From: a virus
Direction: 5' to 3' (one strand)
IMG/VR virus record: IMGVR_UViG_3300031539_000042
Coordinates: 1-54,138 of that record
Length of the DNA stretch: 54,138 nucleotides
Every line of letters begins with the position of its first letter. The stretch's first letter is position 1. Below, one piece after another: positions 4,907 through 54,138 of the stretch. Below the pieces are notes generated by a model that did no database searches, was not told the origin of the DNA, and saw only the letters and a list, made by a program, of their open reading frames with translations. Made by a program: the position numbers and the translations under genes.

Positions 4907-5251
4907 TTATAATTGCGATTGTATATTTTTTATATTTTCAAAAAGATATAAAATATTTCTAATTAGTTTTTTATTTGGCGAACGCATTTTTTTTGAAAGT
5001 TTTGAAAAAATATTATTTATGTCATCAATATGTATACAGTAGTTTAATATAGAAACACTTATTGCTATCTGATTTTTATGTTTTATATTATCAAAAGTTA
5101 TAATAAAATTAGTGTATTTTTTGTTATTATAAAATGAAAATACTTTATCATAACTTTTAAATGCAGAATTTTTTTTAAGATTTTGCTCCAAATCAAAACA
5201 TCTGCTATAACCAAATTCGCTAAAAACTTTTTGTAAAAATTCTATAGTCAT
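4907..5251 (-). CDS. Hypothetical 114-residue protein downstream of methyltransferase
   Basis: Begins MTIEFLQKVFSEFGYSRCFD. Alternating beta and helix pattern, Lys/Asn/Ile-rich, no membrane segment. Its ATG overlaps the methyltransferase stop by 4 bp (5248-5251), so it is coupled to that gene. It might be a partner of the methyltransferase, but that rests on position only. Family unknown. Confidence 0.6.
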   Translation of the reverse strand: MTIEFLQKVFSEFGYSRCFDLEQNLKKNSAFKSYDKVFSFYNNKKYTNFIITFDNIKHKNQIAISVSILNYCIHIDDINNIFSKLSKKMRSPNKKLIRNILYLFENIKNIQSQL

Positions 5252-11420: not shown

Positions 11421-12338
11421 ATGAAAAAATTTAACAGTTTTTTAGAAGTAATAAATACCTTTGATACCGAATTAAAGTGTATAAAATATCTCACTGCAAT
11501 AATATACAAAGATGGTTTTTACTGTCCGTTTTGTAACAGTAAAAAAATCTATCATTTTTCTAATAATAAAACTCATAAATGTGCGGAGTGTAGAAAAAAG
11601 TTTGGTGTTAAAATAGGCACTATATTTGAAGATAGTAAAATTTCATTAAAAAAATGGTTTATGGCAATCTATTTAATGACTTCACATAAAAAGGGTATAT
11701 CCAGTTTACAGCTTTCAAAAGACATTAAAGTAACACAAAAAACAGCGTGGTATATCTTACAAAGGTTAAGATATGCGGTAGATAGTAATTCATTTAAAAA
11801 GCCGTTAAAAGGCATTGTAGAGGTTGACGAAACATATATAGGCGGTAAGGAAACAAACAAGCATAAAAACAAACGCACCAAAGAATATAACACCATATTA
11901 GGCGATAAAAAGCCCATACTGGGTATGGTAGAGAAAAAAGGCAGTATTAAATATCAAAGCATAGAGAAAGCCACTAAAGGCAATGTAAAGCCAATTATTG
12001 AAAGTAATATATCTGATAATGCTATAATACATACAGACGAAAGCCCTATATATAAGTTCTTACCAAAAGATAAAAGAAAAATAGTTAACCATACCTTTAA
12101 AGAGTATGTAGGCAAAGGCGGGATTACTACAAATAATATAGAGGGTTCATTTGCTCATTTTAAAAGAACAATAAATGGAATATATCACTCTGCTAGTAAA
12201 AAGCATATACAAAAATATGCCGATATGTTTTGTTTTCGTTGGAATACAAGGGGTTACAGTATACAGGAACGGATAAATGAGTTTTTTAGTTTAACAAGTG
12301 GTAAGAGATTACAGTATAAGGAGCTTATAAATGGATAA
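11421..12338 (+). CDS. IS1595-family (ISXO2-like) transposase, outer element
   Basis: 305 residues. An N-terminal zinc ribbon has Cys35, Cys38, Cys54 and Cys57. It is followed by a helix-turn-helix-like region (KGISSLQLSKDIKVTQKTAW, 91-110) and an ISXO2-like DDE core with Asp136 (VEVDETYIGGKE), Asp206 (HTDESPIY) and the Glu241 region (NNIEGSFAHFKR). It would catalyse cut and paste of the element. The frame is intact. Its end overlaps the cargo gene start by 8 bp, so the cargo is translated with the transposase. Confidence 0.92.
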   Translation: MKKFNSFLEVINTFDTELKCIKYLTAIIYKDGFYCPFCNSKKIYHFSNNKTHKCAECRKKFGVKIGTIFEDSKISLKKWFMAIYLMTSHKKGISSLQLSKDIKVTQKTAWYILQRLRYAVDSNSFKKPLKGIVEVDETYIGGKETNKHKNKRTKEYNTILGDKKPILGMVEKKGSIKYQSIEKATKGNVKPIIESNISDNAIIHTDESPIYKFLPKDKRKIVNHTFKEYVGKGGITTNNIEGSFAHFKRTINGIYHSASKKHIQKYADMFCFRWNTRGYSIQERINEFFSLTSGKRLQYKELING

Positions 12339-12780
12339 GAAAAAAAAATTTGAAGAATTTTTAAATCGTGTTGCTAGAGTGAAAAAAAGCGAACTGGGCG
12401 CACCCATTGTTTCAGAGGGGAAATTAATTAAAAACACCCGCAAAACACCGAATTTGGGCGCAGGTCAAGACGAGTTTTCTTTTATAGTGGATGTAGAAAA
12501 AGATGTAGATGGTATAATAATGGGAGTATTAGAAAATGGAATACCTTATTTAACAGAGACTGGTCTTGCTAAAATTTGTGGAGTACATAGAAAAACTCTA
12601 TACAGGGTTAATAAAGAATGGGACGGTAGAGATGACAACACTAGAACTATAAAAATTAAACAAATATTGAGAGATACAAATTACAATGGCGAGCATCTTT
12701 TTATATCAGTAACAAAAAAAGGTATTAAATATAAGGGATTTATATACTTAACTAGCCAAAGTTTAAATTTACATTACTAA
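12331..12780 (+). pseudogene. Cargo gene of the outer element, 5' part (split by the inner element)
   Basis: The ATG at 12331 follows AAGGAG. The native frame runs to 12734, where the inner element begins; the last codons to the TAA at 12778-12780 read element DNA. Joining 12331-12734 to 14845-15472 restores one frame of 1032 nt (343 residues) through GIKYNAYPEAVCMALLEYF. The N-part has a motif (VLENGIPYLTETGLAKICGV) like the DNA-binding start of antirepressor-like or P63C-type phage proteins. As it stands it could still make a 149-residue truncated protein, perhaps a DNA-binding fragment. Confidence 0.85.
12727..12734. repeat. Target-site duplication, left copy
   Basis: AAATATAA directly before the inner element, matched by AAATATAA at 14837-14844 directly after it. 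Eight bases is the duplication size typical of the IS1595 family. Confidence 0.9.
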
Positions 12781-12792
12781 ATTGATAAATAT

Positions 12793-13833
12793 CTATTGTC
12801 CCTTTTTATTTATAATCCTACTAAAAACATCCCGTCTATGCTCTTTCTCAAATAAATCTTTCGTTGGTAATAAATTTGTAAAAAACTGGTTAAATAACTC
12901 ATCAAATTCATCTTTGTTATCAGAAACTTTCATAAGATGTGTGAGCATACCAAGATGGCCAAAAAACTTGGCCTCTCCCTTTTCTTGTATAAAAGAATAT
13001 AAAGTTCTTCCGCTTTTACCTCTTTTTTCTTTTAATTGTTTTCTTAATATATCCCTTGTTTTTATTTTTCCATTAGTAACTATAACATCTAGTGGAGTAT
13101 ATATATATTTGTTTATAAATTTTCCAAAAAAGGAAGGATTTTGCCAAGGTTTATCTTTTTTTCTAATAAGACCATATATTTTATACATACCATCAAAGAA
13201 ACCAATATATTCAAATTTCCTTTTTTGGCCTGATGGTAATTCTCTGACAAAATTTTCTCTAAAAAATGCCTCGGCAAATTCTCTTGCCTTTGGGTTAAAT
13301 CCTGTAATTTGTTCTATATGAGTGGTAATGCTTAAATTTAAGAAAGCGTTAACTAATTTTTCCGAATTTTTGGCCTCATAAAAGTAGGTATCTCCCTCTT
13401 TTATTTTTTTAGTTAGGTATGCTTTCCAAAAATCCTTTGCCATTTGTGGTAAAGCCGTAGCATCATATCCCCACTCCATTTTCCCTTTTTTTGTGTAAAA
13501 ATCAATTGGAATACTTAGCTTGTTTCTTAATTCTTCTGATAAAATATTGCACAATGCTTTACTATTTAACAGTCTTTTAAATCTTTGGCCTGATAATTTC
13601 TTGTCATCCTCAACCCCTGTTAATGTTCTAATAAAACCACGGCCACGAACTATATATTTACCATTATCTAATATCCAACATTCTGCTTTAATGATAGGAG
13701 ATATAACACCATCACTAGTTAAAGCTCTTGGATATTTTTTTTCTTCCATTGATTTACCCACATCAACAATAGCTTTTACAACATCTTCAGATGATGCTTT
13801 AATTGGTTCTATAATTTTCTTTTTTTTTGTCAT
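12793..13833 (-). CDS. P63C-domain cargo protein of the inner element
   Basis: 346 residues, overlapping the transposase end by 35 bp and preceded by GGGAGC. The N-part carries WILDNGKYIVRGRGFIRTLTG (about 52-72), a DNA-binding-like or antirepressor-like motif. The middle has WGYDATALPQMAKDFWKAY (about 121-139). The C-part resembles the P63C domain, with FEYIGFFDGMYKIYGL, FGKFINKYIYTPL and FFGHLGMLTHLMK. P63C proteins occur in phages and near transposases; their function is not well defined. It appears to be a distant relative of the outer element's cargo. Possible roles are regulation or phage exclusion, both inference. Confidence 0.75.
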   Translation of the reverse strand: MTKKKKIIEPIKASSEDVVKAIVDVGKSMEEKKYPRALTSDGVISPIIKAECWILDNGKYIVRGRGFIRTLTGVEDDKKLSGQRFKRLLNSKALCNILSEELRNKLSIPIDFYTKKGKMEWGYDATALPQMAKDFWKAYLTKKIKEGDTYFYEAKNSEKLVNAFLNLSITTHIEQITGFNPKAREFAEAFFRENFVRELPSGQKRKFEYIGFFDGMYKIYGLIRKKDKPWQNPSFFGKFINKYIYTPLDVIVTNGKIKTRDILRKQLKEKRGKSGRTLYSFIQEKGEAKFFGHLGMLTHLMKVSDNKDEFDELFNQFFTNLLPTKDLFEKEHRRDVFSRIINKKGQ

Positions 13834-14740
13834 TTATTAGCTCCCTATAGGTTAGTTTCTTACCTATACCCTTATTAAATGTGACTTTTATTTTATCAAT
13901 TCCAGAGGTTTCTATCATATTATGCCTGTTAGAAAACTCATCTATATATCTCTGTAAATGTTTTGAACTCATATGATGATAAATTCCATAATACCCTCTT
14001 TTTAACAAAGCCCAAAAACTTTCTATTCCATTTGTATGATATTGGCCATATACATATTCTTTTACTGAATGTTTTACTCTTTTGTGTATAAAACCCTGAT
14101 TTTTAAGTTGATTATAACTTCTATACTCATCAGTATTAAGTATTGCAGATTTTTTAATATTATTATTAGCAAAGTAATTTATAGTAGTTTCATTTGTATT
14201 ATTTACTATCTTGGCCTTTATTTTTCCTCGTCTTTCTAGTGCTCCAAGTATAGCCATTTTTGTTTTTGTACTTCTACCCTGTGTATTTAATGTTTTCTTG
14301 TTCTGATGTTTATTGCCCTCTTTTCCCCCAATGTATGTTTCGTCAATTTCAATAACTCCATCAAGTTTATCATTTTCTTGCAACCAAGTTTCCCTTATTC
14401 TATGAGCTAAAAACCAAGCTGTTTTTTGAGTAGTTTCTAAATACTCGGCCAACTGAATTGAAGAAATACCCTTTTTAGAATTAGTAAGTATGTATATGGC
14501 CAATAACCATTTTTGAAGTGGTAATTTTGACTCTGATAGTATAGTTCCAACCCTAACACTAAAATGTTTGCGACAATCACGACATCTATATGGCATTGGC
14601 CTTACACATTCTGATATAGACTTGCTTTTACAATAAGGACAAGTAATATCATTTCCCCATCTTAATTTTTCAAAATAAAGTGTGGCATCCTCTTCACTTG
14701 GAAACTTCTTAAAAAATTCAATTAGACTAAATTTAATCAT
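13799..14740 (-). CDS. IS1595-family (ISXO2-like) transposase, inner element
   Basis: 313 residues from the ATG at 14740, chosen because AGGAGG lies nine bases before it (a longer frame opens at 14776 without a site). The zinc ribbon has CPYC and CRDC. The catalytic core has IEIDETYIGGKE, LNTDEYRSYN and NGIESFWALLKRG, the D, D and E positions of ISXO2-like enzymes. It is clearly diverged from the outer-element transposase, so the two elements did not arise by simple duplication. Confidence 0.92.
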   Translation of the reverse strand: MIKFSLIEFFKKFPSEEDATLYFEKLRWGNDITCPYCKSKSISECVRPMPYRCRDCRKHFSVRVGTILSESKLPLQKWLLAIYILTNSKKGISSIQLAEYLETTQKTAWFLAHRIRETWLQENDKLDGVIEIDETYIGGKEGNKHQNKKTLNTQGRSTKTKMAILGALERRGKIKAKIVNNTNETTINYFANNNIKKSAILNTDEYRSYNQLKNQGFIHKRVKHSVKEYVYGQYHTNGIESFWALLKRGYYGIYHHMSSKHLQRYIDEFSNRHNMIETSGIDKIKVTFNKGIGKKLTYRELINDKKKENYRTN

Positions 14741-14766
14741 AATATGTATCCTCCTAATATAAACAT

Positions 14767-14795
14767 ATCGTAACATAAAAATAATGGCTAGTCAA
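14767..14795 (-). promoter_or_regulatory. Promoter of the inner-element transposase
   Basis: On the minus strand, -35 TTGACT (14795-14790), a 17-bp spacer, and -10 TACGAT (14772-14767), just inside the element end and before the AGGAGG site at 14750-14755. Confidence 0.7.
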
Positions 14796-14836
14796 GTGTT
14801 TTTTAGTTTTTTTGGCTAGTTAAGTATATAAATCCC

Positions 14837-14844
14837 AAATATAA
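14837..14844. repeat. Target-site duplication, right copy
   Basis: AAATATAA, identical to 12727-12734; the outer element's cargo reading frame resumes directly after it. Confidence 0.9.
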
Positions 14845-23121: not shown

Positions 23122-24435
23122 TTAAAAAGTTACAGTCCCTAAAATACCTAATTGCCCGCCTGTAATACTTATATCTGTTGTAGGGGTAGATAATGTAAAA
23201 CTTGTAACCTTTTCTCCTGTTTCATTATCTATCGTATTTTGTATCGCAGAGCGATATTTATCCTGTGTAATATTTTCACCCACATTAACTTCTTCTCTAA
23301 AAAATTGTTGTAAACTTGTATTAATAGAATTTTGCATACTTGTAGTATTTGGGCTTAAAGCTGTAAAAGTAAAATCAACAGTTACCGCTGTAGGTGCTTG
23401 TACTATCACATAACTATCTGGAGTATGAGCTGGTTTAATTTCTAAAATTTTATTCTTTACTTCGGTAACTTCCGCTCCACTTGGTATTGGGTCTACATCA
23501 TTATATCTAGCAAAATAAATCTCAACTTTACCCGCACTTGGGGTAGCTTCAAATATCCAAACATTTGTAACACCGCTAACTTCTTTTGCTTTTAATGTTA
23601 TACTTGCAGAGTTAAAATGACTTGTTGGATTTTGTATTTTAAATAAAACTCTATCCTGTAAACTAGCATCTGTTTCAATATCAGTTCCACCTCCTACTTC
23701 GCCATATTGCACTACTGCCTCACTAGTCATTCCTACAATTGGGGTAGTTACTGTAACAGTATCGCCATTTAATAAGTTTGCAGACTGCCCGAAGTCATCT
23801 GTTTTTACAGATAAATCAGCAATAGTAAATCCTGCTAAAATAGTTCCTGTTGCTGGACTTGTTGGTGTTGCTGTAATTTCATAAGTAAAAGTATTTAATC
23901 CATTTACTACTATTTCAAAAGTTCCATTATAATCTGTTTCAACCGCACCCGATATTGTTACCGATACGCCTGTTGCCAAAGGGTGGTTACTTGCACTAGT
24001 GGCGGTTACAGTAGTTCCTACTCGTGTTAAACTACTAATAGAAATACTTTGTGCTGTTATCGTAACACTACCTTGAGTTTTTAAAACAATGCCGTCAGTG
24101 CTTTGAAATTCGGTATTATCAGGTATTACAGTACTAGCTATACCTGTGGCTGTAATATTACCCTCTGCCTGCGTTGCCGAGTTTCTAACAATGCCGTAAA
24201 TGTCAGCCCAGCGTTCTATAGTTTCTGTTAAAGTCGCTGTATTTATAAATAAATTTGGAAATAAAAGTTTTTTAATTTGATAATAAATATCGTAAATTCT
24301 ACCTGCAAAACCCTGTATTAAAGCAGCAATCCAACTATTTTTTAAAAATGGATTAGATTGTGGTAAATTATTTTGCACATCAGTTTTAATTCTATCAGAT
24401 ACTTCTTTTCTGTTTTCAGGTACTTGTATCGCCAT
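23122..24435 (-). CDS. Baseplate J-like protein (Mu gp47) with inserted Ig-like module
   Basis: 437 residues, with a baseplate-J N-part (FLKNSWIAALIQGFAGRIYD, about 26-45), TETIERWADIYGIVRNSATQ, and a conserved GGGTDIETDASLQDRVLFK region. A module of about 75 residues (about 128-205, with SGAVETDYNGT and TPTSPATGT) interrupts the usual fold and is shared with two neck or tail proteins. It would form the baseplate wedge between gp46 and gp48. Family call is strong; the module insertion is directly visible. Confidence 0.85.
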   Translation of the reverse strand: MAIQVPENRKEVSDRIKTDVQNNLPQSNPFLKNSWIAALIQGFAGRIYDIYYQIKKLLFPNLFINTATLTETIERWADIYGIVRNSATQAEGNITATGIASTVIPDNTEFQSTDGIVLKTQGSVTITAQSISISSLTRVGTTVTATSASNHPLATGVSVTISGAVETDYNGTFEIVVNGLNTFTYEITATPTSPATGTILAGFTIADLSVKTDDFGQSANLLNGDTVTVTTPIVGMTSEAVVQYGEVGGGTDIETDASLQDRVLFKIQNPTSHFNSASITLKAKEVSGVTNVWIFEATPSAGKVEIYFARYNDVDPIPSGAEVTEVKNKILEIKPAHTPDSYVIVQAPTAVTVDFTFTALSPNTTSMQNSINTSLQQFFREEVNVGENITQDKYRSAIQNTIDNETGEKVTSFTLSTPTTDISITGGQLGILGTVTF

Positions 24436-35116: not shown

Positions 35117-36232
35117 TTAATCTCCTTGTAATTTTCCTTTTATATTTCTTATTTCTAAATCAGTTTCTATGTTTCTTTGTGAAAACTCAAATTCTTTAAA
35201 TGCGGTACTCCATTGTGGTTTAACAATGTCATCTGCTGTTAAATCATAAGAGTATTGGAATTGAAAATTATGTATGTAATAAGCATTTACATCTTGCTGT
35301 AAATTATCAGATACAAACATAGTTTTTAATTTTTCATTCCCACTTGATAAATTATCAAAGTTATCAATTATACTTCGTTCAAATTTTGTACCTAAAATAC
35401 ATTTAAAAAATATAGCTCTCATATCCTCTGCCCTGTCTCTGCGTTCCGAACTTGCATATGTTGTTTTTGCAGGGTCAAAAGTGTATATATTGAAGTTTTG
35501 GTATAAATTAGGTCTATAATCGTCTTGTGAAGTATAAGTTCCAACACCATCATTTCTAACAGAGTTTTGATTTTTACTTGCATTAGTTTCACCTAAAACA
35601 ACAAAAGTCCATAATTTATCTATTGCTTTTTTAGTATAAGCATCTATAATTCTACCCAAACTTGCACTTCCAGTTACCCTAATATCGCTATGTGCTTTTA
35701 TAGTTCCACTTGCATTTGCTAATGGTTCTTTTCTTACAACATAAGTAAAAACTGTATCGCTAATTCTAGTTACTGTATACCAGCCGTTGTAAAGGTTTTC
35801 TATATCCTCATTTAAAACAGGACTTCCAGTTGCTGGACTTGTTGGATTACCACTAACTTGAAAAGTAAATGATGTACTATCAATAACTGATAATAGTTTT
35901 TTAGTTCCGTTATATTCGGTTTGAGTAGCTCCGCTAATTTCTACATATTTATCATTTTTATCAATTCCAATTCTTAAAGTTAAATCAATAGGATTTGTAG
36001 TTACAGCAGTTGCTATGTTATCTGTTTGCGTTAAACTAGTTATGGCATTGGGAACTCTAGCACCTTGAATGTTTACATAATCGCCAGTTTTTAAGCCGTG
36101 AGCTAATGCAGTAGTGGCAGTAATAGTAGTGGTAGATTTGGTTAAACTATTAACAGTAACCACATCACTAAATAATTCAGTGTATATTGGTAATGTAGCC
36201 TGTAATTGTTTAACTATGTCGCTTGCTTTCAT
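35117..36232 (-). CDS. Neck/tail protein with two Ig-like module segments
   Basis: 371 residues. The start (MKASDIVKQLQATLPIYTEL) and C-part (DKLWTFVVLGETNASKNQNS, later FQFQYSYDLTADDIVKPQWS) suggest a tail-terminator or neck protein of the Mu gp37 type. About 150 residues near the N-terminus contain modules with SGATQTEYNGT and NPTSPATGS that are shared with the baseplate J-like protein and the connector protein. Overlaps the upstream gene by one base. Confidence 0.6.
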   Translation of the reverse strand: MKASDIVKQLQATLPIYTELFSDVVTVNSLTKSTTTITATTALAHGLKTGDYVNIQGARVPNAITSLTQTDNIATAVTTNPIDLTLRIGIDKNDKYVEISGATQTEYNGTKKLLSVIDSTSFTFQVSGNPTSPATGSPVLNEDIENLYNGWYTVTRISDTVFTYVVRKEPLANASGTIKAHSDIRVTGSASLGRIIDAYTKKAIDKLWTFVVLGETNASKNQNSVRNDGVGTYTSQDDYRPNLYQNFNIYTFDPAKTTYASSERRDRAEDMRAIFFKCILGTKFERSIIDNFDNLSSGNEKLKTMFVSDNLQQDVNAYYIHNFQFQYSYDLTADDIVKPQWSTAFKEFEFSQRNIETDLEIRNIKGKLQGD

Positions 36233-37083: not shown

Positions 37084-37916
37084 ATACGATACATAGAATA
37101 AGTTTGTTTAGTTTCTGCTGGTAAATTAATGCTAGAACTTATATCGCAAGCCTCTGAATTACCTGCATCACAATCGCCTCTATTTTCAAACACCCTGCTA
37201 ATGTGTTGTAACATTGCTGTCTTCAAATCCTGTGGTATATCATTCGCAAATAATGTTCCTGTTGCGGGGCTTGTGGGTGTTGCGGTAAGTGGATATGTAA
37301 ATGTCTTATCCCCTGTTACAGTAATTGTATGTGTGCCGTTATAATTACTCTCAATCGCACCACTAATAACTATTTTTTGTCCGCTTGTAAAATAGTGGTC
37401 GTTTACTGTGGTTACCGTTACTGTTCCACCTGCCAATATAGCACTATCTATTTTTACCCCAAAACCTGAATAGAATTGTATTTGAACTGCTTGTCGTCTA
37501 TTATCTACACTGCTAGGGAAACTACTACCGTCTGTTAATAGAATATCTGCAAAATCATTTTGTTCGTCAGTTAAATAATAAATTGAGCTATCAACCGTAG
37601 TTAAAACATTATCCAACAAATATTTAATACTTATAATTTCAAACACTTTATTCCTACGAAGTGTTATAGGTTCAAAGAAACAATCAATATAAGTTAAATA
37701 TTTTTTAGTTATAAAATCTCGTTTAGTATATTTTTCTGCAAATAAGGTTACACTAGAAATAAGAGAACTTATATAAGCATCAGAACTTGTGTCATCAACT
37801 TTTAAATGCTCTTTTGCCTCTACTAAACTAATAGGCAATGTAACTGGTTTAAACAAAACCTTATAACTACTTGGTTGATATTTTTCTACATTATTTCGGT
37901 AATAATCATAGCTCAT
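37068..37916 (-). CDS. Head-tail connector (HK97 gp6-like) with inserted Ig-like module
   Basis: 282 residues. LPISLVEAKEHLKVDDTSSD and ISSVTLFAEKYTKRDFITKK (28-70) are typical of gp6-like connectors. The family is usually 100-200 residues; here an extra module (about 160-230, with SGAIESNYNGT and TPTSPATGT) is inserted before the C-terminal helix. That module is also in the baseplate J-like and neck proteins. Confidence 0.82.
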   Translation of the reverse strand: MSYDYYRNNVEKYQPSSYKVLFKPVTLPISLVEAKEHLKVDDTSSDAYISSLISSVTLFAEKYTKRDFITKKYLTYIDCFFEPITLRRNKVFEIISIKYLLDNVLTTVDSSIYYLTDEQNDFADILLTDGSSFPSSVDNRRQAVQIQFYSGFGVKIDSAILAGGTVTVTTVNDHYFTSGQKIVISGAIESNYNGTHTITVTGDKTFTYPLTATPTSPATGTLFANDIPQDLKTAMLQHISRVFENRGDCDAGNSEACDISSSINLPAETKQTYSMYRIWEIL

Positions 37917-41442: not shown

Positions 41443-42270
41443 TTATTTCCTTAATCCATAAGTAACAGAACATCTGCAATTTATTGTATTACCCACACTT
41501 CCCCTACTATCACTTGGATATCGTAATGGCTCACCACCAACGAAAAAAGGTTGATTGGTATCTACAGTCTGTCCGTCTGCCCTTGCGTGTGAAGTTCTTG
41601 TTTTGCTATCTAAAACAGTATGCCAAGTTTTTTGCATTAATCCAGCCACCGCAGTTCCTGCCACAACTAATCCACTTACAGAAACCATACTAGCCTCTGT
41701 TTGTTTAGATGTTTCACTAACATTATTTACTTCGGTCATTGCTATAGTATCAGCTCTAGTAGGTATTTGTTTTTTATAATCCAGTTTAACTTTAGTGGCA
41801 ACTTCTGAATTACTTAATTGTTCGCCCTCAATAGATGCATTCACTATAGTTTTTCTTGTAATATCTGTTATTTCATTTTGCGTTGTGCGGTTAATAAATT
41901 GTGCCTGTTCTGTAGAATGTTGATTAATATAATTTGCCATAGCCACACTAACTGCATTTTCTAAATTCTTAACTTCTTCTGTTTTATCTAAATTACCTGT
42001 AATATTATTTTTAAATTGTTTACTGGTTTTACGATAATGATTTTTCAAAATACCTGTTAAGTCATCTTGATAAGGTTGCATACTAGGTACTTGTCCTGTT
42101 ACACCATAAAACACTTCATAATCAGTTATAATAGTATTTAAAAGTCTTCTTATGTCTTTTGCAAAGGCAGGTTCAAGTTTAAGTTTTTTAGCTAAATCAA
42201 TAGCAACCTGTCTATTAGCATCGGCATTTGAGGTAACTAAATCTTTTTTATCTTTGCAAATTTCACACAT
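41443..42270 (-). CDS. Phage head morphogenesis protein (SPP1 gp7 / Mu F-like)
   Basis: 275 residues. The C-part has KTWHTVLDSKTRTSHARADG, QTVDTNQPF, GEPLRYPSDSRG and NTINCRCSV, the MuF-type motif set. The N-part is helical with CEICKDKK at the start, a single Cys pair. Probably one of the few copies inside the head near the portal. Its ATG follows a structured RNA element (42287-42386). Confidence 0.88.
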   Translation of the reverse strand: MCEICKDKKDLVTSNADANRQVAIDLAKKLKLEPAFAKDIRRLLNTIITDYEVFYGVTGQVPSMQPYQDDLTGILKNHYRKTSKQFKNNITGNLDKTEEVKNLENAVSVAMANYINQHSTEQAQFINRTTQNEITDITRKTIVNASIEGEQLSNSEVATKVKLDYKKQIPTRADTIAMTEVNNVSETSKQTEASMVSVSGLVVAGTAVAGLMQKTWHTVLDSKTRTSHARADGQTVDTNQPFFVGGEPLRYPSDSRGSVGNTINCRCSVTYGLRK

Positions 42271-42286
42271 AATTTTTATTTTTTTT

Positions 42287-42386
42287 CACACAAAAAAGGG
42301 GTATATGGATTTTAACCATACACCCCTAAAAGTGTGCAAACTAGTCAGTGTTTAGGCACTGTAAAGCGGTAATGAACCGCACCTAG
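42287..42386 (-). ncRNA. Structured RNA element E1
   Basis: On the minus strand, 5' to 3': an outer CTAG/CTAG pair (42386-42383, 42344-42341) encloses hairpins GCGGT/ACCGC (42366-42380) and CAGTG/CACTG (42346-42361). Then comes a long hairpin with CACAC/GTGTG (42336-42332, 42291-42287) around a T-rich internal loop and a 12-bp stem AGGGGTGTATGG/CCATATACCCCT with one G-U wobble. On the plus strand that pair would be an A-C mismatch. The six T's after the inner stem also make it terminator-like. The same layout occurs at 47121-47250. Confidence 0.55.
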
Positions 42387-42392
42387 AAATTG

Positions 42393-42707
42393 TTACTTAC
42401 TTATATTTTTTCTAACCTCTGTCTGTTTTATTTCTATAGGCTTATAAATTTCTATAGTTTTTCCATTATTATTCATAACAAATAATTGATATTTTGTAAT
42501 TATACATCGCAAGTCATTATTTTTATCCTTGTAACTAATATATCTATAATTCCAATTATCATTTCCACCTGTAATTAAATGATATTGTGGGGGAGAATAT
42601 TTATCTAATATCTCTTTAGGTGTTTCAAATCCACCTTCCACAATAACTTCTTCTGCACCGTCAATGTACTTACTCCCTTTATTTAGGAAGTCTATTTTTA
42701 TTATCAT
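42393..42707 (-). CDS. Hypothetical 104-residue protein between portal and MuF genes
   Basis: Begins MIIKIDFLNKGSKYIDGAEE; beta-rich, with DRYISYK-like strand patterns and LRCIITKYQLFVMNNNGKTI. Its ATG overlaps the stop of the 48-residue gene by 4 bp. Family unknown. Confidence 0.55.
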   Translation of the reverse strand: MIIKIDFLNKGSKYIDGAEEVIVEGGFETPKEILDKYSPPQYHLITGGNDNWNYRYISYKDKNNDLRCIITKYQLFVMNNNGKTIEIYKPIEIKQTEVRKNISK

Positions 42708-42850
42708 TCTTCTACTCCTTCTTCTGTTTTATTTTTGCATATCTGCAAATCTGTTATATCAATTTCTTTTCTACATAACTTACAAAATTTAATTACTTTA
42801 GGGCTAAAAGTAAATTGGTCTATTCCCCAATCGTGTTCGCATTCTGCCAT
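42704..42850 (-). CDS. Small zinc-ribbon-like protein (48 residues)
   Basis: The ATG at 42850 overlaps the portal stop by one base (TAATG), and its TGA overlaps the next ATG by 4 bp. It begins MAECEHDWGIDQFTF and has CKLC, matching the common phage C-x-H-x-W...C-x-x-C zinc pattern. Function unknown. Confidence 0.6.
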   Translation of the reverse strand: MAECEHDWGIDQFTFSPKVIKFCKLCRKEIDITDLQICKNKTEEGVEE

Positions 42851-44280
42851 TACTCTAACCCCTCCTCATCTGCAATCTCTATTATCTCTACATCGGTAAA
42901 CTTTCTATTGCCTTTCTCATCTACCTGCTTTTGCATTAAATCAATAAACTTATTTCGGGTAGTTAATTCTTTTACAGGTTTAGGTTTAGTTAAAGCATTT
43001 GTTTTGTTTATATCCGTTGCCACAGGGACTAAATTCATAGGCTTATAAATAGCATCAGCACCATCTGTTAACTGTTCCATACCCTCTTCCGTTCTTAATT
43101 CATTATCAGTGAAATAACCCGATTTTTGCTTTCTTGCCAATTCCTTATTTCTACGAACTGCTAAATCATCAATGTCATTCTCATCATAAGTAATTATTTT
43201 ATTTTCAAGTTTAAATCGTGATACCAAAAAACTGGTTAATTCTTGAAACATAGTCTTTGCTAATGGCAATATAGCATTATCCCATAGCTTTACCTGTGCC
43301 TCTTCAAAATTATTAAATGTGGATGCCTCTGTGCTTACCAAAGGCAAAGGTATTTTTAGATTATTATAAATCTGCTTTTCTTTATCATTAATTAAATTTC
43401 TAAAATCCATATCTCTCATAGATTTACCTAGTTCGGTAAATTCGTGTTTTTTACCAAAGATAGCAACCTTGTTTGAGTTTTCAGTTCCCTTATGTTTAGA
43501 ATTGAAATCACTTTGCACCTTTTGCATTTGGTCTGCGGATAATTCATCTATTGAAAGTAACCCACCTAAAAAAGCACCATTTTTTAAACTATTAAAATTA
43601 TGTTTATCTCCTTCTTGTATTTGTAAAGCAGGAGATTTATCTGCATTAAATAATGACATACCTTTTAAATTATCACTACTTCTAAACGGATTAAAAGTTT
43701 TTATATGCCAAATTTCCCTACCATCACCACTAAAAAATCTAAATTCTTTTGGAGAGCGTTTAAATATTTCTTTGTGTCCGTAGGATTGTATTGTATACTC
43801 AGATGCAAGCCCGTCTAATTTACTACCTTTTACTTCAACATATTGGCTAGGGATAACATTTAATTCTTTTGGAGGTTGTGTAATATTACCAATACCAACT
43901 ATATATAAATTTCCAGTGGGTATATAATAACTACCCATTTGTTTAAAAAACTCATCTTTTAATGTATCTTTATTAGGTTCTGCTAATAAATCAAATAATG
44001 CTTGCTCGTTTTCTTTTATACCTTCCGAACCATTTTTTATAAATTTCTCTTCTTTCTTATCCCATAAGACAGGTTCTAAAGTTTTAAATTTATCTGTAAT
44101 TAAATTAACCGCCGTATTAATAGCAGTAACCCTAGCGTAAAGAGTTAATGCCTCTTCATCTGTTAAATCCTTACCAAAAGTATCGCCATTACCGCCATAG
44201 GTAATTCTTAAAATATCTTCTATACTATAACTCTTTTTTCCAATTAATGTATTAAATGCTCTTTTAAATTGTAGTTTCAT
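42850..44280 (-). CDS. Portal protein
   Basis: 476 residues. Features of HK97-like portals: LYARVTAINTAVNLITDKFK (about 48-67), NLYIVGIGN, VIPSQYVEVKG, and a C-part PLVSTEASTFNNFEEAQVKL with DNELRTEEGMEQLTDGADAI. Forms the dodecameric ring through which the terminase packages DNA. Lies directly after a small Cys protein and the large terminase. Confidence 0.9.
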   Translation of the reverse strand: MKLQFKRAFNTLIGKKSYSIEDILRITYGGNGDTFGKDLTDEEALTLYARVTAINTAVNLITDKFKTLEPVLWDKKEEKFIKNGSEGIKENEQALFDLLAEPNKDTLKDEFFKQMGSYYIPTGNLYIVGIGNITQPPKELNVIPSQYVEVKGSKLDGLASEYTIQSYGHKEIFKRSPKEFRFFSGDGREIWHIKTFNPFRSSDNLKGMSLFNADKSPALQIQEGDKHNFNSLKNGAFLGGLLSIDELSADQMQKVQSDFNSKHKGTENSNKVAIFGKKHEFTELGKSMRDMDFRNLINDKEKQIYNNLKIPLPLVSTEASTFNNFEEAQVKLWDNAILPLAKTMFQELTSFLVSRFKLENKIITYDENDIDDLAVRRNKELARKQKSGYFTDNELRTEEGMEQLTDGADAIYKPMNLVPVATDINKTNALTKPKPVKELTTRNKFIDLMQKQVDEKGNRKFTDVEIIEIADEEGLE

Positions 44281-44469
44281 TTATCTAAATCCATCCGTAA
44301 AAATTACACTTGAAGTCAACCCATTTTTAATTAAATAACTTTCATAACAATCAGGACAAAGCTTTTTTCCTTGCACTATATAGTAAGGATTTCCATACGC
44401 TATAAGAGCAGTACAATTACCATTTTCACAATCCCCGTCCCTTTTTTCTAATTTATCTCCGTATTCCAT
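44281..44469 (-). CDS. Small Cys-rich (zinc-binding) protein
   Basis: 62 residues between the large terminase and portal. Cys residues in DCENGNC (about 13-19) and CPDC (about 38-41) suggest one zinc site (the pattern resembles a small LIM-like or ribbon domain). Stop abuts the portal start (44280/44281). Function unknown. Confidence 0.6.
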   Translation of the reverse strand: MEYGDKLEKRDGDCENGNCTALIAYGNPYYIVQGKKLCPDCYESYLIKNGLTSSVIFTDGFR

Positions 44470-44478
44470 AATTAAATC

Positions 44479-45906
44479 CTAATTAGCAAATCCGTATACA
44501 AAAGGTTTTTCTCTTGTTAAATATATTAGTCCTTGAGTAGTACTATCAACAATGTCATCGTGTTTAGCGTTTGGAAAATTATTAAACTCTTTTAAAAAAT
44601 CTACTAGCCACTCTGCGTTTTCAGGTAAAAATACCCTACCACTTTCAATTGTACTGCTACATATCCGAACCCGTGCCTGTTTATCTTTATCAGTTTTAAA
44701 GTTAATTATTGGCAAATTAGTACCTCTTTGTAAATCTTGTATTATCTGCTGTCCGCTTGATTTATCTTCAATCAAAATAGTATCTGCTTTATGTTTATTG
44801 TTACAAGCTTGCACCATTCTTTTCAATTCAGGATATTCCCATTTACCCCTTACGCAATCAATCAAATAATATCCTGTGTCAGTCTCCCCAAATAGTATTC
44901 CAACACTATAATCATTTTGAGTTCCAGTTTTTACCGCTGTGTCCCAACTCCATATTTTTCTTTTAGTGTTTGGCAAATTAGTATAATATTTCCACCATTC
45001 TTGCTTTATTATGCCACCACCTTCTGGACTTGGAGATTGTAACATTTGCCCGCTGTATCCATATGAACCTAGATTTGATTTATATTCTTGTAAACTTGAT
45101 AATGGAAATCTTTTAGGAAAAAATAAACCATTCTCATATTTACCTACCAAATATTTAGGCGATATCATTTCAGTATTTTCAACAGGAATACAAATATGCT
45201 TATAATAGCTTGCTCTTTTGCCTAATAGATGTCCTGTTAAATCGTTCTCGTGCAATCTCTGCATAATTACAACTCTTAATCCTATATTTTGATTATTTAA
45301 TCTACTAAATAAAGTCTTGTCATACCACTCTAAACAATTGAGCCTCTCTGCTTCACTATCTGCCATTTGTGGATTTAAAGCATCATCTACACAAATTACA
45401 TCCGCTCCCATTCCTGTTATACCACTACCAACACCAACTGCTTTACGCATTCCACCTTTATCATTTTCAAACCAACTCTTTGTGTTTTGGTCTGTGGTTA
45501 ATTTAAAAATATTACCAAAATGCTCCTGATACCAGTTACTTTCAATTAACCGCCTAGTTGACATACTCAATGAATTAGCAAGTTCCTGTGCAAAACTAGC
45601 TGCAATAAACTTTAAATGTGGATACTTTATCCAAGCCCAAGCATTTAAAAAAATAGTAGTTATACTTGATTTAAGACTTCTCGGAGGTATATTAATTATG
45701 ATGTCTTTATCTTTTGGCTTCTTGTTAGCTATCCGTTCTACTTCTGCTTGCAACTTATCGCATAGATACTTTATATGCCAATTTTGTATTAACTCCGTAG
45801 TGGGTTCTAATACTTCCCACGCTATATTAAAGAACTCGTAATAACTATCTTTACAAATACTTCTAATTAAATCCTGCTTACTAAAATTAATGTCATTTAT
45901 TTTCAT
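44479..45906 (-). CDS. terL: Terminase large subunit
   Basis: 475 residues. ATPase with Walker A-like PPRSLKSS (74-81) and Walker B VICVDD (170-175). The RNase H-like nuclease has Asp322 (WSWDTA), Glu380/Asp381 (LIEDKSSG) and Asp450/Asp451/Asp454 (HDDIVDS). It cuts concatemeric DNA and pumps it through the portal. It overlaps the small terminase gene by 14 bp. Confidence 0.93.
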   Translation of the reverse strand: MKINDINFSKQDLIRSICKDSYYEFFNIAWEVLEPTTELIQNWHIKYLCDKLQAEVERIANKKPKDKDIIINIPPRSLKSSITTIFLNAWAWIKYPHLKFIAASFAQELANSLSMSTRRLIESNWYQEHFGNIFKLTTDQNTKSWFENDKGGMRKAVGVGSGITGMGADVICVDDALNPQMADSEAERLNCLEWYDKTLFSRLNNQNIGLRVVIMQRLHENDLTGHLLGKRASYYKHICIPVENTEMISPKYLVGKYENGLFFPKRFPLSSLQEYKSNLGSYGYSGQMLQSPSPEGGGIIKQEWWKYYTNLPNTKRKIWSWDTAVKTGTQNDYSVGILFGETDTGYYLIDCVRGKWEYPELKRMVQACNNKHKADTILIEDKSSGQQIIQDLQRGTNLPIINFKTDKDKQARVRICSSTIESGRVFLPENAEWLVDFLKEFNNFPNAKHDDIVDSTTQGLIYLTREKPFVYGFAN

Positions 45907-46291
45907 TACTTCTTTTCATAATTTCTAATATTTCTTTTTTGTCTTTTAAAGGTAAATTATCAAGGTCTGTTTTGTTTTCAATAGAACCTTTCACTTCCGT
46001 TTCCGTCTTTAAACTAAATTCGTCTTTTTTCTTTCTTTCCAAATATTTCAAAGCCATTTCAGCATTATCATTTTTTATTGCTTTTAGAACCGTCTGTCTA
46101 GCCAATAATATGGGCTTATCTTTTAACTGCTTAACACGCTCTTTTAGTTTAGGGTCTCTATTAAACCAATTATAAATGGTCTTTGTTTCTATATCACAAT
46201 ATAAAGCTATCTCTGCATTAGTACAACCATATGCAGCTGCCTCGTCTATTTTAAGTCTCATTGCTTTTGTTAATTTATCTGATGTTGACAT
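45893..46291 (-). CDS. terS: Terminase small subunit-like protein
   Basis: 132 residues. An N-terminal helix-turn-helix (AAAYGCTNAEIALYCDIETK, about 18-37, then TIYNWFNRD) is followed by a long helix and a charged C-terminal region, as in small terminases that bind the packaging site. Located directly before terL. Confidence 0.8.
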   Translation of the reverse strand: MSTSDKLTKAMRLKIDEAAAYGCTNAEIALYCDIETKTIYNWFNRDPKLKERVKQLKDKPILLARQTVLKAIKNDNAEMALKYLERKKKDEFSLKTETEVKGSIENKTDLDNLPLKDKKEILEIMKRSNENK

Positions 46292-46351
46292 TTTAATGTA
46301 AACTACCTTTTTTTAAATTGTTAAAACATTACATATTATTTTTTATTTTTA

Positions 46352-46501
46352 TCACTCATACCATTTATCAATATTATCAAAAGTTTTCATAACTTCTGTA
46401 TCATCTATATATTCAAGTAAAAGTTTATCAGCTTGTATATGCGCTTCTGGTTTAAGCCCTTTAACATTTTTAAGTTTTTCTATTAATTCTTGTTTAGTCA
46501 T
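46352..46501 (-). CDS. Hypothetical 49-residue protein
   Basis: Begins MTKQELIEKLKNVKGLKPEA, helical and acidic at the end (DKWYE). Between a small gene and the terminase. The 60 bp before terS (46292-46351) contain only A+T-rich DNA with no clear promoter. Family unknown. Confidence 0.5.
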   Translation of the reverse strand: MTKQELIEKLKNVKGLKPEAHIQADKLLLEYIDDTEVMKTFDNIDKWYE

Positions 46502-46503
46502 AA

Positions 46504-46647
46504 TCACTCACTAAAATTCTCAATTACTTCTTTATCCTGCAATACAATACCCTTTACTTTCATAGCAAATTTAATAGCCTCATCTTCGTTGTAAAACTCC
46601 GCAGTGGTATACTTACCGTCATTATTATATGTTACTTCAAAATTCAT
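46504..46647 (-). CDS. Hypothetical 47-residue protein
   Basis: Begins MNFEVTYNNDGKYTTAEFYN, a beta-beta-alpha pattern of the kind seen in small phage proteins (strands, then NEDEAIKFAMKVKG helix). Separated from the next gene by 2 bp. Family unknown. Confidence 0.5.
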   Translation of the reverse strand: MNFEVTYNNDGKYTTAEFYNEDEAIKFAMKVKGIVLQDKEVIENFSE

Positions 46648-46659
46648 CACTTAAATTCC

Positions 46660-46959
46660 TTATGGTTTTTTCTTAATATTGATTTTTTTATAATCCAAAT
46701 ATCCGTTATTAAAAATATAATTAAATAAATCTATTGGCTCGTGAGTGGAAAGTATTTTGTTTAATTTTTCTCCGCCTTTTAAAAATATGTTATATTCATA
46801 CAAATAAACCCACTCATCTTTAAATACAGTCATAGTTCTTTCGCCAACATTATTTATACAAGAAATTTCGGATAATATTATTTCTACATTATCCCCAAAT
46901 CTAACTGTATTATTGTCTGTTTTTTTAGCAAAAAATCTTTTATAACAATCGCTATTCAT
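46660..46959 (-). CDS. Hypothetical 99-residue protein
   Basis: Begins MNSDCYKRFFAKKTDNNTVR, beta-rich first half and a helical FNYIFNNGYLDYKKINI end. Overlaps the next upstream gene by one base. Family unknown. Confidence 0.5.
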   Translation of the reverse strand: MNSDCYKRFFAKKTDNNTVRFGDNVEIILSEISCINNVGERTMTVFKDEWVYLYEYNIFLKGGEKLNKILSTHEPIDLFNYIFNNGYLDYKKINIKKKP

Positions 46960-47105
46960 TACTTAAGCTCCTTAATCTTTTTTCTATTAAATAAAATTAT
47001 GCTGGGTTTATTTTTATAAGCAAAAGTATAAGCACTTGTTTTATTATTAAAATAAGTGTAATTTTTAAAATTATCTACCAAATGAATTACTTCGTATTTA
47101 TTCAT
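46959..47105 (-). CDS. Hypothetical 48-residue protein downstream of RNA element E2
   Basis: The start at 47105 (MNKYEVIHLVDNFKNYTYFN) is preferred because the upstream part of the longer frame lies in the structured element. Beta-rich with a basic end. Family unknown. Confidence 0.5.
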   Translation of the reverse strand: MNKYEVIHLVDNFKNYTYFNNKTSAYTFAYKNKPSIILFNRKKIKELK

Positions 47106-47120
47106 TTTTTTAATCCTATA

Positions 47121-47250
47121 TACGCAAAAAGGGGCGTTTATACTAACATAAATATATATGCTAATACAAACACCCCTAGAAAGTGCGTATTTTAACAGGT
47201 TCGGTAGGATTTCCAAATGCCGAATAAAGAGCTTGCAAGGCTCAACTGTT
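47121..47250 (-). ncRNA. Structured RNA element E2
   Basis: On the minus strand, outer AACAG/CTGTT (47194-47198 with 47246-47250) encloses hairpins GAGC/GCTC (47229-47243) and TTCGG/CCGAA (47200-47224). A long hairpin follows, with TACGCA/TGCGTA (47121-47126, 47184-47189) around a 21-bp stem (47130-47150 with 47157-47177). The four non-Watson-Crick positions in that stem are all G-U on the minus-strand RNA. Same layout as E1 with different sequence. The T's after the inner stem also allow terminator activity. Confidence 0.55.
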
Positions 47251-47338
47251 ACTTTTAATTGATGTGTGTCAAAGTGTTAACCATTTATAAATAGCTATAG
47301 ATACAAAATAGCACCACAACGCTAACCACACAAATTGT

Positions 47339-47461
47339 TTAAAGAGCTATACCACAATTAGCTGAAATTTTTGCAGTTTTAGTAAAAGCATCTGCAAGTA
47401 ATTTAATTTCCTTATCTGTAAATTGTTTTTTTAAGTTTTTAAATTTATTATATTTTTTCAT
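47339..47461 (-). CDS. Hypothetical 40-residue protein
   Basis: Begins MKKYNKFKNLKKQFTDKEIK, basic then helical. Its ATG overlaps the upstream stop by 4 bp, supporting translation. The 88 bp to element E2 contain no other gene. Family unknown. Confidence 0.45.
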   Translation of the reverse strand: MKKYNKFKNLKKQFTDKEIKLLADAFTKTAKISANCGIAL

Positions 47462-49855: not shown

Positions 49856-49924
49856 CCTCGTTTAAAAACTCTTCAAACTTTTTATGACTGTCAATCAAAG
49901 AATGCATATGGTCTTGTGTCATTT
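49856..49924. repeat. Mosaic duplicate of two neighbouring genes' ends
   Basis: Bases 49856-49899 copy the 3' end of the VRR-NUC gene (50142-50185, one mismatch). Bases 49903-49924 copy the start of the 58-residue gene (50886-50907). A few bases further on, TTTTTTCAGTCCCAT resembles the start of the gene at 49473. The gap between 49824 and 49960 thus looks like a recombination scar with at most a 21-codon ORF. Confidence 0.7.
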
Positions 49925-49960
49925 AGTTTTATCATCCCAGTTTTTTTCAGTCCCATTGTT

Positions 49961-50134
49961 TCACTCCTTAATTTTCTTAAATCTTTTTACGACATCAGCA
50001 TAAAATTCTTCCCCATACATACAATTTTTATTTACAGTCATTTTTTTGCCACATAACTTGCAAATTCTTTTCACTTTATTATCTGAAACATTTACAAATG
50101 AACTATAAATCCAAATATGTTTATATTTTTTCAT
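49961..50134 (-). CDS. Small zinc-binding protein (57 residues)
   Basis: The ATG is at 50134. MKKYKHIWIYSSFVNVSDNK, with CKLCGKKM and a lone later Cys, like the C-terminal ribbon of small phage proteins. Overlaps the VRR-NUC end by 4 bp. Function unknown. Confidence 0.5.
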   Translation of the reverse strand: MKKYKHIWIYSSFVNVSDNKVKRICKLCGKKMTVNKNCMYGEEFYADVVKRFKKIKE

Positions 50135-50526
50135 TTTTTCACCTCGCTTAAAAACTCTTCAAACTTTTTATGACTGTCAATCAAAATATATGGCAACCCC
50201 TCTTTCTCTACTTCTGATTGGAAGTGCTTTTGCTCGTTTGATTGTACTCCGCCTGCTTTAGCAATTATTCTCTTACCTGTTTTATCGCTTATTTTGTACT
50301 CTGTGGGGGTTTTTATCTCAACGAAGTACACTTTGCCATTGCTGACTACAACAAGGTCGCTAGCACCAGTCATAAGTCCTTCTCTTTTAAGATATGCCAT
50401 AAGAAAAAATCTTTGTTTATAGGGTATTTTTGAAAGTAAACTTTGGCTATTCGGCACTGCAAAAACAAAGATATTCATTCGTTTTAAAGTATTTACTATA
50501 TTGACTTGAAAATCGTGTTCTGTCAT
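50131..50526 (-). CDS. VRR-NUC domain nuclease
   Basis: 131 residues of the VRR-NUC (PD-(D/E)XK) family: LMTGASDLVVV with Asp57, YFVEIKTP with Glu70 and Lys72, and QSNEQKHF with Gln95/Gln99. Stand-alone small VRR-NUC proteins are common in phages and are thought to act on branched DNA such as Holliday junctions. Coupled to neighbours by 4-bp overlaps. Confidence 0.88.
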   Translation of the reverse strand: MTEHDFQVNIVNTLKRMNIFVFAVPNSQSLLSKIPYKQRFFLMAYLKREGLMTGASDLVVVSNGKVYFVEIKTPTEYKISDKTGKRIIAKAGGVQSNEQKHFQSEVEKEGLPYILIDSHKKFEEFLSEVKK

Positions 50527-50732: not shown

Positions 50733-50905
50733 TTTATCTCTATCCCCTTTGCTATTTTTTCAAATTCCTTGCATTTTTCTAAAAGTTCTTTTGCAATTTT
50801 GATATTTTTTAAAATATTAACATAGTTTTTTTTAAAATCTGTAACTAGCATAATTTTAGTTGTGTCTAGCAAATCAATTAAAGACTGCATATGGTCTTGT
50901 GTCAT
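50729..50905 (-). CDS. Hypothetical helical protein (58 residues)
   Basis: Begins MTQDHMQSLIDLLDTTKIML and is helical throughout with a basic end. Start and stop overlap neighbours by 4 bp. A fragment of its 5' end is duplicated at 49903-49924. Function unknown. Confidence 0.5.
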   Translation of the reverse strand: MTQDHMQSLIDLLDTTKIMLVTDFKKNYVNILKNIKIAKELLEKCKEFEKIAKGIEIK

Positions 50906-51039
50906 TTCAATATTTCTCCCTCTACATTGAATTGCATAACAGTATCACATTTTGGACAGTCAACAATTATAAAATTATCTTGGTCTAACTCCGCTTCTAT
51001 ACTTTCTTGGCAGTTTTCGTTTAAGCATTTCAATATCAT
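50902..51039 (-). CDS. Small zinc-ribbon protein (45 residues)
   Basis: CLNENC near residues 5-10 and CPKC near 28-31 with hydrophobic strands: a compact ribbon. Coupled to both neighbours by 4-bp overlaps. Function unknown. Confidence 0.55.
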   Translation of the reverse strand: MILKCLNENCQESIEAELDQDNFIIVDCPKCDTVMQFNVEGEILK

Positions 51040-53884: not shown

Positions 53885-54138
53885 TTAAAGTTTAACTATT
53901 CTATATCTAGCAAAATGTTCGCCTTCTTTTTTTAAAACTTCTCTTTTATAACCTGCATATTTACCATTTGCAATATGCCTTAAAATTCTATCGGCATCCG
54001 TAAAACCAGTATTCAATATCCACTCTTTTTTAGTCCAAAAATCACCATTGCAAAAATCCCGTAATATTATTTCAGCTTGATTACGATACAGATTTTGGTC
54101 TGTTTCATTTTTTATATATTTACCATAAAACTTTACAG
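53885..54138 (-). CDS. Join-spanning hypothetical protein, C-terminal part
   Basis: The same gene as 1-191: the frame enters at 54138 within the repeated 127 bases and ends with TAA at 53885-53887. The last residues read KREVLKKEGEHFARYRIVKL. On the 54,011-bp circle it is one uninterrupted 105-residue gene. Confidence 0.7.
   Translation of the reverse strand, partial: VKFYGKYIKNETDQNLYRNQAEIILRDFCNGDFWTKKEWILNTGFTDADRILRHIANGKYAGYKREVLKKEGEHFARYRIVKL
54012..54138. repeat. Terminal direct repeat, copy 2 (circular closure)
   Basis: Exact duplicate of bases 1-127. It should be trimmed when the molecule is treated as a circle. Confidence 0.95.

Follow-up and report, generated by a model that had tools for sequence, protein, structure and literature searches.

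Two folded RNAs encoded in the window (the whole stretch of viral DNA analysed, 54,138 nucleotides), designated E1 and E2, represent a well-supported family of apparently cis-acting RNAs, about 100-130 nt long, located in phage head operons. The family is conserved and strand-specific, and its members probably form a pseudoknot. The reading we prefer, at a probability of roughly 0.4, is that this pseudoknot competes with an intrinsic-type terminator and would thereby set read-through into the head genes.

Structure and setting of E1 and E2

The E1 RNA is read from the minus strand, which is the strand of the genes, from 42386 to 42287 (5' to 3'). Its minimum free energy is -40.5 kcal/mol, and no shuffled sequence folds equally well (Table 1). 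All the parts attributed to E1 in a preliminary description are present, and E2 repeats them in the same order with other letters. A stem, P1, encloses two hairpins, P2 and P3; a long hairpin, P4, follows, composed of an outer stem (P4a), a U-rich internal loop, and an inner stem (P4b) based on AGGGG/CCCCU, after which comes a U-tract. The stems of E2 are fully paired (P1 5/5, P2 4/4, P3 5/5, P4a 6/6, P4b 21/21). The claim that only AGGGG/CCCCT and its flanking bases are conserved between the two was too narrow, as the UUUA that separates the hairpins, the CUUU preceding AGGGG and the U-tract following CCCCU are also common to both. Ahead of AGGGG, E1 has one base fewer than E2.

Table 1. Features of E1, E2 and the genes next to E1 (window coordinates; paired strands are given 5' strand first).
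Feature	Position	Strand	Remarks
E1, whole	42287..42386	minus	fold z -6.4; top R1 match in window
E1 domain 1	42341..42386	minus	P1 around P2 and P3; P1, P2 and P3 each with both-sided changes across the family
E1 P1	42386-42383 with 42344-42341	minus	CUAG/CUAG
E1 P2	42380-42376/42370-42366	minus	
E1 P3	42361-42357/42350-42346	minus	
E1 P3 loop CCUAAA, pseudoknot 5' strand	42351..42356	minus	complementary to 42330-42325
E1 UUUAGG, pseudoknot 3' strand	42325..42330	minus	AGG doubles as P4b base
E1 P4	42287..42336	minus	
E1 P4a	42336-42332/42291-42287	minus	CACAC/GUGUG
E1 P4 internal loop	42331-42328/42296-42292	minus	UUUU/UUUUU
E1 P4b	42327-42316/42308-42297	minus	AGGGGUGUAUGG/CCAUAUACCCCU
E1 P4b 3' arm and U-tract, terminator-like	42292..42308	minus	terminator scan
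E2, whole	47121..47250	minus	fold z -6.95; second R1 match in window, 16 bits
E2 pseudoknot	47217-47210 (UUUGGAAA) with 47182-47175 (UUUCUAGG)	minus	8 bp; shuffle frequency 0.012
MuF-like head morphogenesis protein gene, after E1	41443..42270	minus	PF04233 E 6e-9; phrog_2468 E 2e-34
Orphan 104-aa gene, between portal and E1	42393..42707	minus	no family match
Portal protein gene, upstream of E1	42850..44280	minus	PF04860 E 2e-40

E1 lies, as had been described, inside the head operon (portal, MuF, protease, capsid) and directly before the MuF-like gene, its end being 16 nt from the ATG of this Phage_Mu_F gene (PF04233). The MuF, protease and capsid genes are downstream of it, and the portal gene and an orphan gene upstream. 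E2 lies upstream of small genes and the terminase genes, and is preceded by a canonical terminator (47654-47637).

A sister phage, 3300031565_000064 (L002, L003), carries near-identical copies of the elements. Its E1 differs from that of the window only within the linker between P1 and P4a. The sister sequence L003 has no counterpart of window positions 42399-42882, which include the orphan gene (from 42393), and retains E1 alongside; a gene has been gained or lost right at the border of the RNA element.

Several further features of the window were recorded. Its ends (1-127 and 54012-54138) are identical over 127 nt, which makes it likely that the record is a complete phage genome assembled as a circle. 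Two IS1595-type (ISXO2-like) transposase genes, one on the plus strand (11421-12338) and one on the minus strand (13799-14776), lie in the region 11421-14776; the second is flanked by 32-nt inverted repeats (12729-12760 and 14811-14842, 94%). A DNA methylase of 842 aa is encoded at 5248-7776; a 221-position profile match is spread over its residues 25-828 and the sister phage methylase has 487 aa (L002 354-1817), which suggests a large insert in the window gene. Three different structural genes contain a 46-nt repeat (23844-23889, 35824-35869, 37256-37301) with 78-83% identity, perhaps marking a shared surface or Ig-like domain. Among the small early genes, duplicated stretches of 34-44 nt, up to 98% identical (49856-50185 and 50874-50907), suggest recent small duplications.

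Homologues in other viral contigs

A portal search returned the sister phage only, and DNA patterns drawn from the element were therefore used. The first of these, with E2 spacing, matched only the sister's E2, because E1 is the shorter before AGGGG. Pattern scans yielded L010, L022, L047, L049 and L167 in addition to the sister, true members being sorted by script and by eye. L152 was reached through capsid-protein relatives of L047 and L049, and L160 and, weakly, L015 through the covariance model R1. Homologues are thus present in nine other viral contigs, comprising the sister and these eight distinct members, of which the weaker L015 is the least certain. The preliminary description had proposed a covariance-model search, and had held that an absence of further homologues would speak against the element; the nine contigs answer that objection. 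Most loci from the pattern scans had no P3 hairpin and were rejected as ordinary terminators or chance matches, as were ten loci from genome contigs, which likewise had no P3 hairpin when assessed by script and by eye. In 292 genomes, a pattern search returned two matches.

R1 was built from six contigs with the window left out. Its top match in the window is nevertheless E1 (42287-42385, minus strand, E 8e-11), at 48.9 bits, while its best score in 398 bacterial genomes is 38.4 bits; the membership of E1 must therefore be viewed as secure. The second match, E2 (E 0.026), is not secure by score alone, and its membership rests instead on its layout, its fully paired stems and its 8-bp pseudoknot. 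For modelling, the P4b apex was cut to a UUCG loop, and because of this shortening the model R2 drew in ordinary terminators: every R2 match from a bacterial genome that was inspected is of this type. The L160 row in R2 is shortened and has one wrong base, with negligible effect.

The element is not found everywhere that related head genes are. A blastn search with the L049 element against named phages gave no match, and R2 detected no element in six named phages with related head genes. In L153, L157, L158, L159 and L161, which have similar capsid genes, no element was found in the homologous gap or by the model, so the element is dispensable or exchangeable. Two recognised copies occur in the window and its sister only, a count to be read with the fact that the whole-record scan missed E2 too, so that weak second copies elsewhere could escape it.

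Searched at the gathering threshold, Rfam 15 has no match at the element in the window, L010, L022, L047, L049, L152, L160, L167, L015 or L003. A permissive Rfam scan of 41900-47400 produced two chance microRNA matches and nothing else. In the open-access subset of the literature, no description of the element was found.

Covariation of the stems

The preliminary description had read the differing but still paired stems of E1 and E2 as covariation, which two sequences could not prove; eleven sequences do show it. In the model alignment of these eleven, 94.2% of the cells at paired positions do pair, and both-sided changes are seen at 20 of the 25 pairs, figures somewhat inflated by the fitting of the alignment to the structure. 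No shuffle reaches them, and slid structures pair at only 40-53%. P4a has both-sided changes in all four counted pairs and is lengthened to nine pairs in L167. Its 3' strand lies past the U-tract, and a stem that closes across this tract exists only in read-through RNA. P4b is a nearly perfect helix of 12-21 bp across members; its four lowest pairs are invariant in the family, and three of these involve bases shared with the pseudoknot described below.

A probable pseudoknot

A feature missed in the preliminary description is the complementarity of the P3 loop, CCUAAAA, to UUUUAGG on the 5' side of the P4 internal loop. Such complementarity is found in every member. In L160 the pair reads CCUAUAA/UUAUAGG, a compensatory double change at a place outside the modelled pairs, and pseudoknots of altered sequence occur in E2 (Table 1) and L015 (UCCUUA/UAAGGG). 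Pair counting alone gives modest support, because the pairing hardly varies: a single compensatory change is counted, and shuffling does equally well in 56 of 500 trials. We regard the pseudoknot as probable.

The AGG at the foot of P4b is also part of the pseudoknot strand in E1, E2 and all other listed members, so that either of two partners is available to these three bases. Stacking contributes about -4 to -5.5 kcal/mol to the pseudoknot, loop costs not counted, against -8.2 for the bottom three P4b pairs. By these energies the completed P4b wins at equilibrium; an effect of the pseudoknot, if any, would be kinetic or would need help.

Genomic context across the family

Every copy of the element lies on the coding strand, with the next start codon usually 4-45 nt downstream, and several members are mid-operon. 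It precedes scaffold-like and capsid genes in L022, L047, L049 and L152, a scaffold-like gene in L010, a capsid gene in L167, the portal gene in L160, and MuF in the window (E1). In L015 it precedes a portal-like gene, assigned by order and size, with no PHROG match. The portal families of the carriers differ (PF04860/phrog_12, phrog_156, phrog_332/1216, phrog_2662), which implies that the retention of the RNA, or its exchange, has not been tied to that of the head genes.

A folded recombination or packaging site was rejected as the main reading, since no copy lies off the coding strand and the spacing from the terminase genes is not constant; the recombination site offered in the preliminary description is accordingly disfavoured. 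Sequestration of the ribosome-binding site was rejected as a general function, as in L022, L152 and L167 the fold does not include the Shine-Dalgarno-like sequence.

Proposed mechanism and alternatives

In the mechanism we propose, the AGG at the base of P4b would pair either with CCU of the P3 loop, forming the pseudoknot, or with CCU of the P4b 3' arm. Intrinsic termination, or a strong pause, would result from the finished P4b and the U-tract. The pseudoknot, if made first, while the 3' half of P4b is still to be transcribed, would delay the last three P4b pairs and let RNA polymerase pass, after which P4a, its 3' strand lying beyond the U-tract, would close the fold. The balance between pseudoknot and P4b, on which a factor from phage or host may act, would set the share of transcripts that reach the head genes. 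Several observations are consistent with this. P4b with its U-tract is a G+C-rich hairpin running straight into a T-run on the coding strand; the terminator scan picks it out in both E1 (AGGGG..CCCCT TTTTT) and E2, the arrangement is kept in the family, and the family models also pick up ordinary terminators. E1 and E2 are the only strong terminator-like coding-strand hairpins found within the late operon. The three invariant P4b pairs shared with the pseudoknot are what a two-partner switch requires. Against it, the U-tract of L047 is broken (UAUUUU), and P4a, forming only after read-through, is unneeded by a simple attenuator.

That covarying P4a should exist in read-through RNA only, next to a long helix and a nearby start codon, would suit a post-transcriptional element, in which the mRNA fold stops exonucleases or guides cleavage (by RNase III, for example) and the head-gene part of the transcript would get its own stability and translation level. 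A processing site alone, however, leaves the AGGG/CCCU invariance, the all-U tract and the pseudoknot without explanation, and we consider this reading rather unlikely. Processive antitermination, with the nascent RNA binding RNA polymerase so that pauses and terminators are ignored through the remaining late operon, has a precedent in HK022 putRNA (PMC9378689) and would account for a compact, strand-specific folded RNA, at or in a long late operon, kept across unrelated head modules. It is improbable here, as the downstream late operon shows no strong coding-strand terminators needing read-through, neither sequence nor layout matches put, and members can be mid-operon.

In most members a U4/U5 internal loop faces the CCUAAAA loop, so that the A-rich P3 loop might dock between the U strands of the P4 loop as an ENE-like intramolecular U.A-U triple helix, serving only as a structural stabiliser. 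Yet the A-run is missing from L160 (CCUAUAA), E2 (whose loop contains GGAAA) and L015 (UCCUUA), all of which keep an all-U 3' strand. That strand must then be conserved for something other than a triplex; this favours a terminator or pause tract, and we hold the triple helix to be very improbable. The simpler alternative raised in the preliminary description, two ordinary intrinsic terminators, here with chance upstream hairpins, is partly borne out: P4b and its U-tract are indistinguishable from a terminator, and termination or pausing is probably involved. As a full account it deserves hardly any credence, since E1 outscores every bacterial match to a model built without the window, P1-P3 and P4a covary, and the pseudoknot complementarity recurs in all members. 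The suggestion of a phage regulatory RNA fared better, in that a folded, covarying element with relatives in nine other contigs probably has a regulatory role.

Relation to known RNAs

The proposed competition of pseudoknot and terminator resembles that in terminator/antiterminator attenuators (leader RNAs, transcriptional riboswitches), where the base of a U-tract hairpin is set against an upstream pairing ahead of genes of the same operon. It differs in that a pseudoknot made by a hairpin loop takes the place of the alternative pairing, a covarying stem, P4a, spans the U-tract, neither a ligand nor a leader peptide is apparent, and the setting is phage head operons. In the Pistol ribozyme, too, a hairpin loop pairs as a pseudoknot with the internal loop of the next hairpin; unlike Pistol, the present family has no Rfam pistol match, its 3' strand is a U-tract without conserved cleavage-site letters, and it has a terminator-like arm. 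ENE elements have a U-rich internal loop between two stems, the partner being a 3' poly(A) tail. The E1/E2 family has such a loop and, in most members, an A-rich partner, but the partner is a hairpin loop and its A-run is absent from the three members named above. The HK022 putRNA is a phage RNA that acts on polymerase by itself; put is about 73 nt long, with two stem-loops and a triplex in the first stem, and belongs to the early operons of lambdoid phages (PMC9378689). Both are compact phage RNAs placed where read-through matters, and the present one could likewise act in cis on its own polymerase; unlike put, it combines three hairpins with a pseudoknot and a terminator-like arm, and it occurs in head operons.

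Significance

E1, E2 and their relatives form a structured RNA family absent from Rfam 15. In kind it would belong with cis-acting terminator/antiterminator RNAs; what is new is a pseudoknot formed by a loop, a stem bridging the U-tract, and the place in head operons. A bolder reading, which we hold to be doubtful, is that these RNAs make up a new class of phage switch RNA, kept by or exchanged between unrelated head modules and gating head-gene transcription alone or on a phage or host signal. Phages need capsid protein far above the terminase and portal proteins from adjoining genes, and control of this ratio is known in few phage models. A compact candidate for such ratio control is the present RNA, which is conserved and strand-specific and occupies this boundary in phages whose head genes are unrelated.
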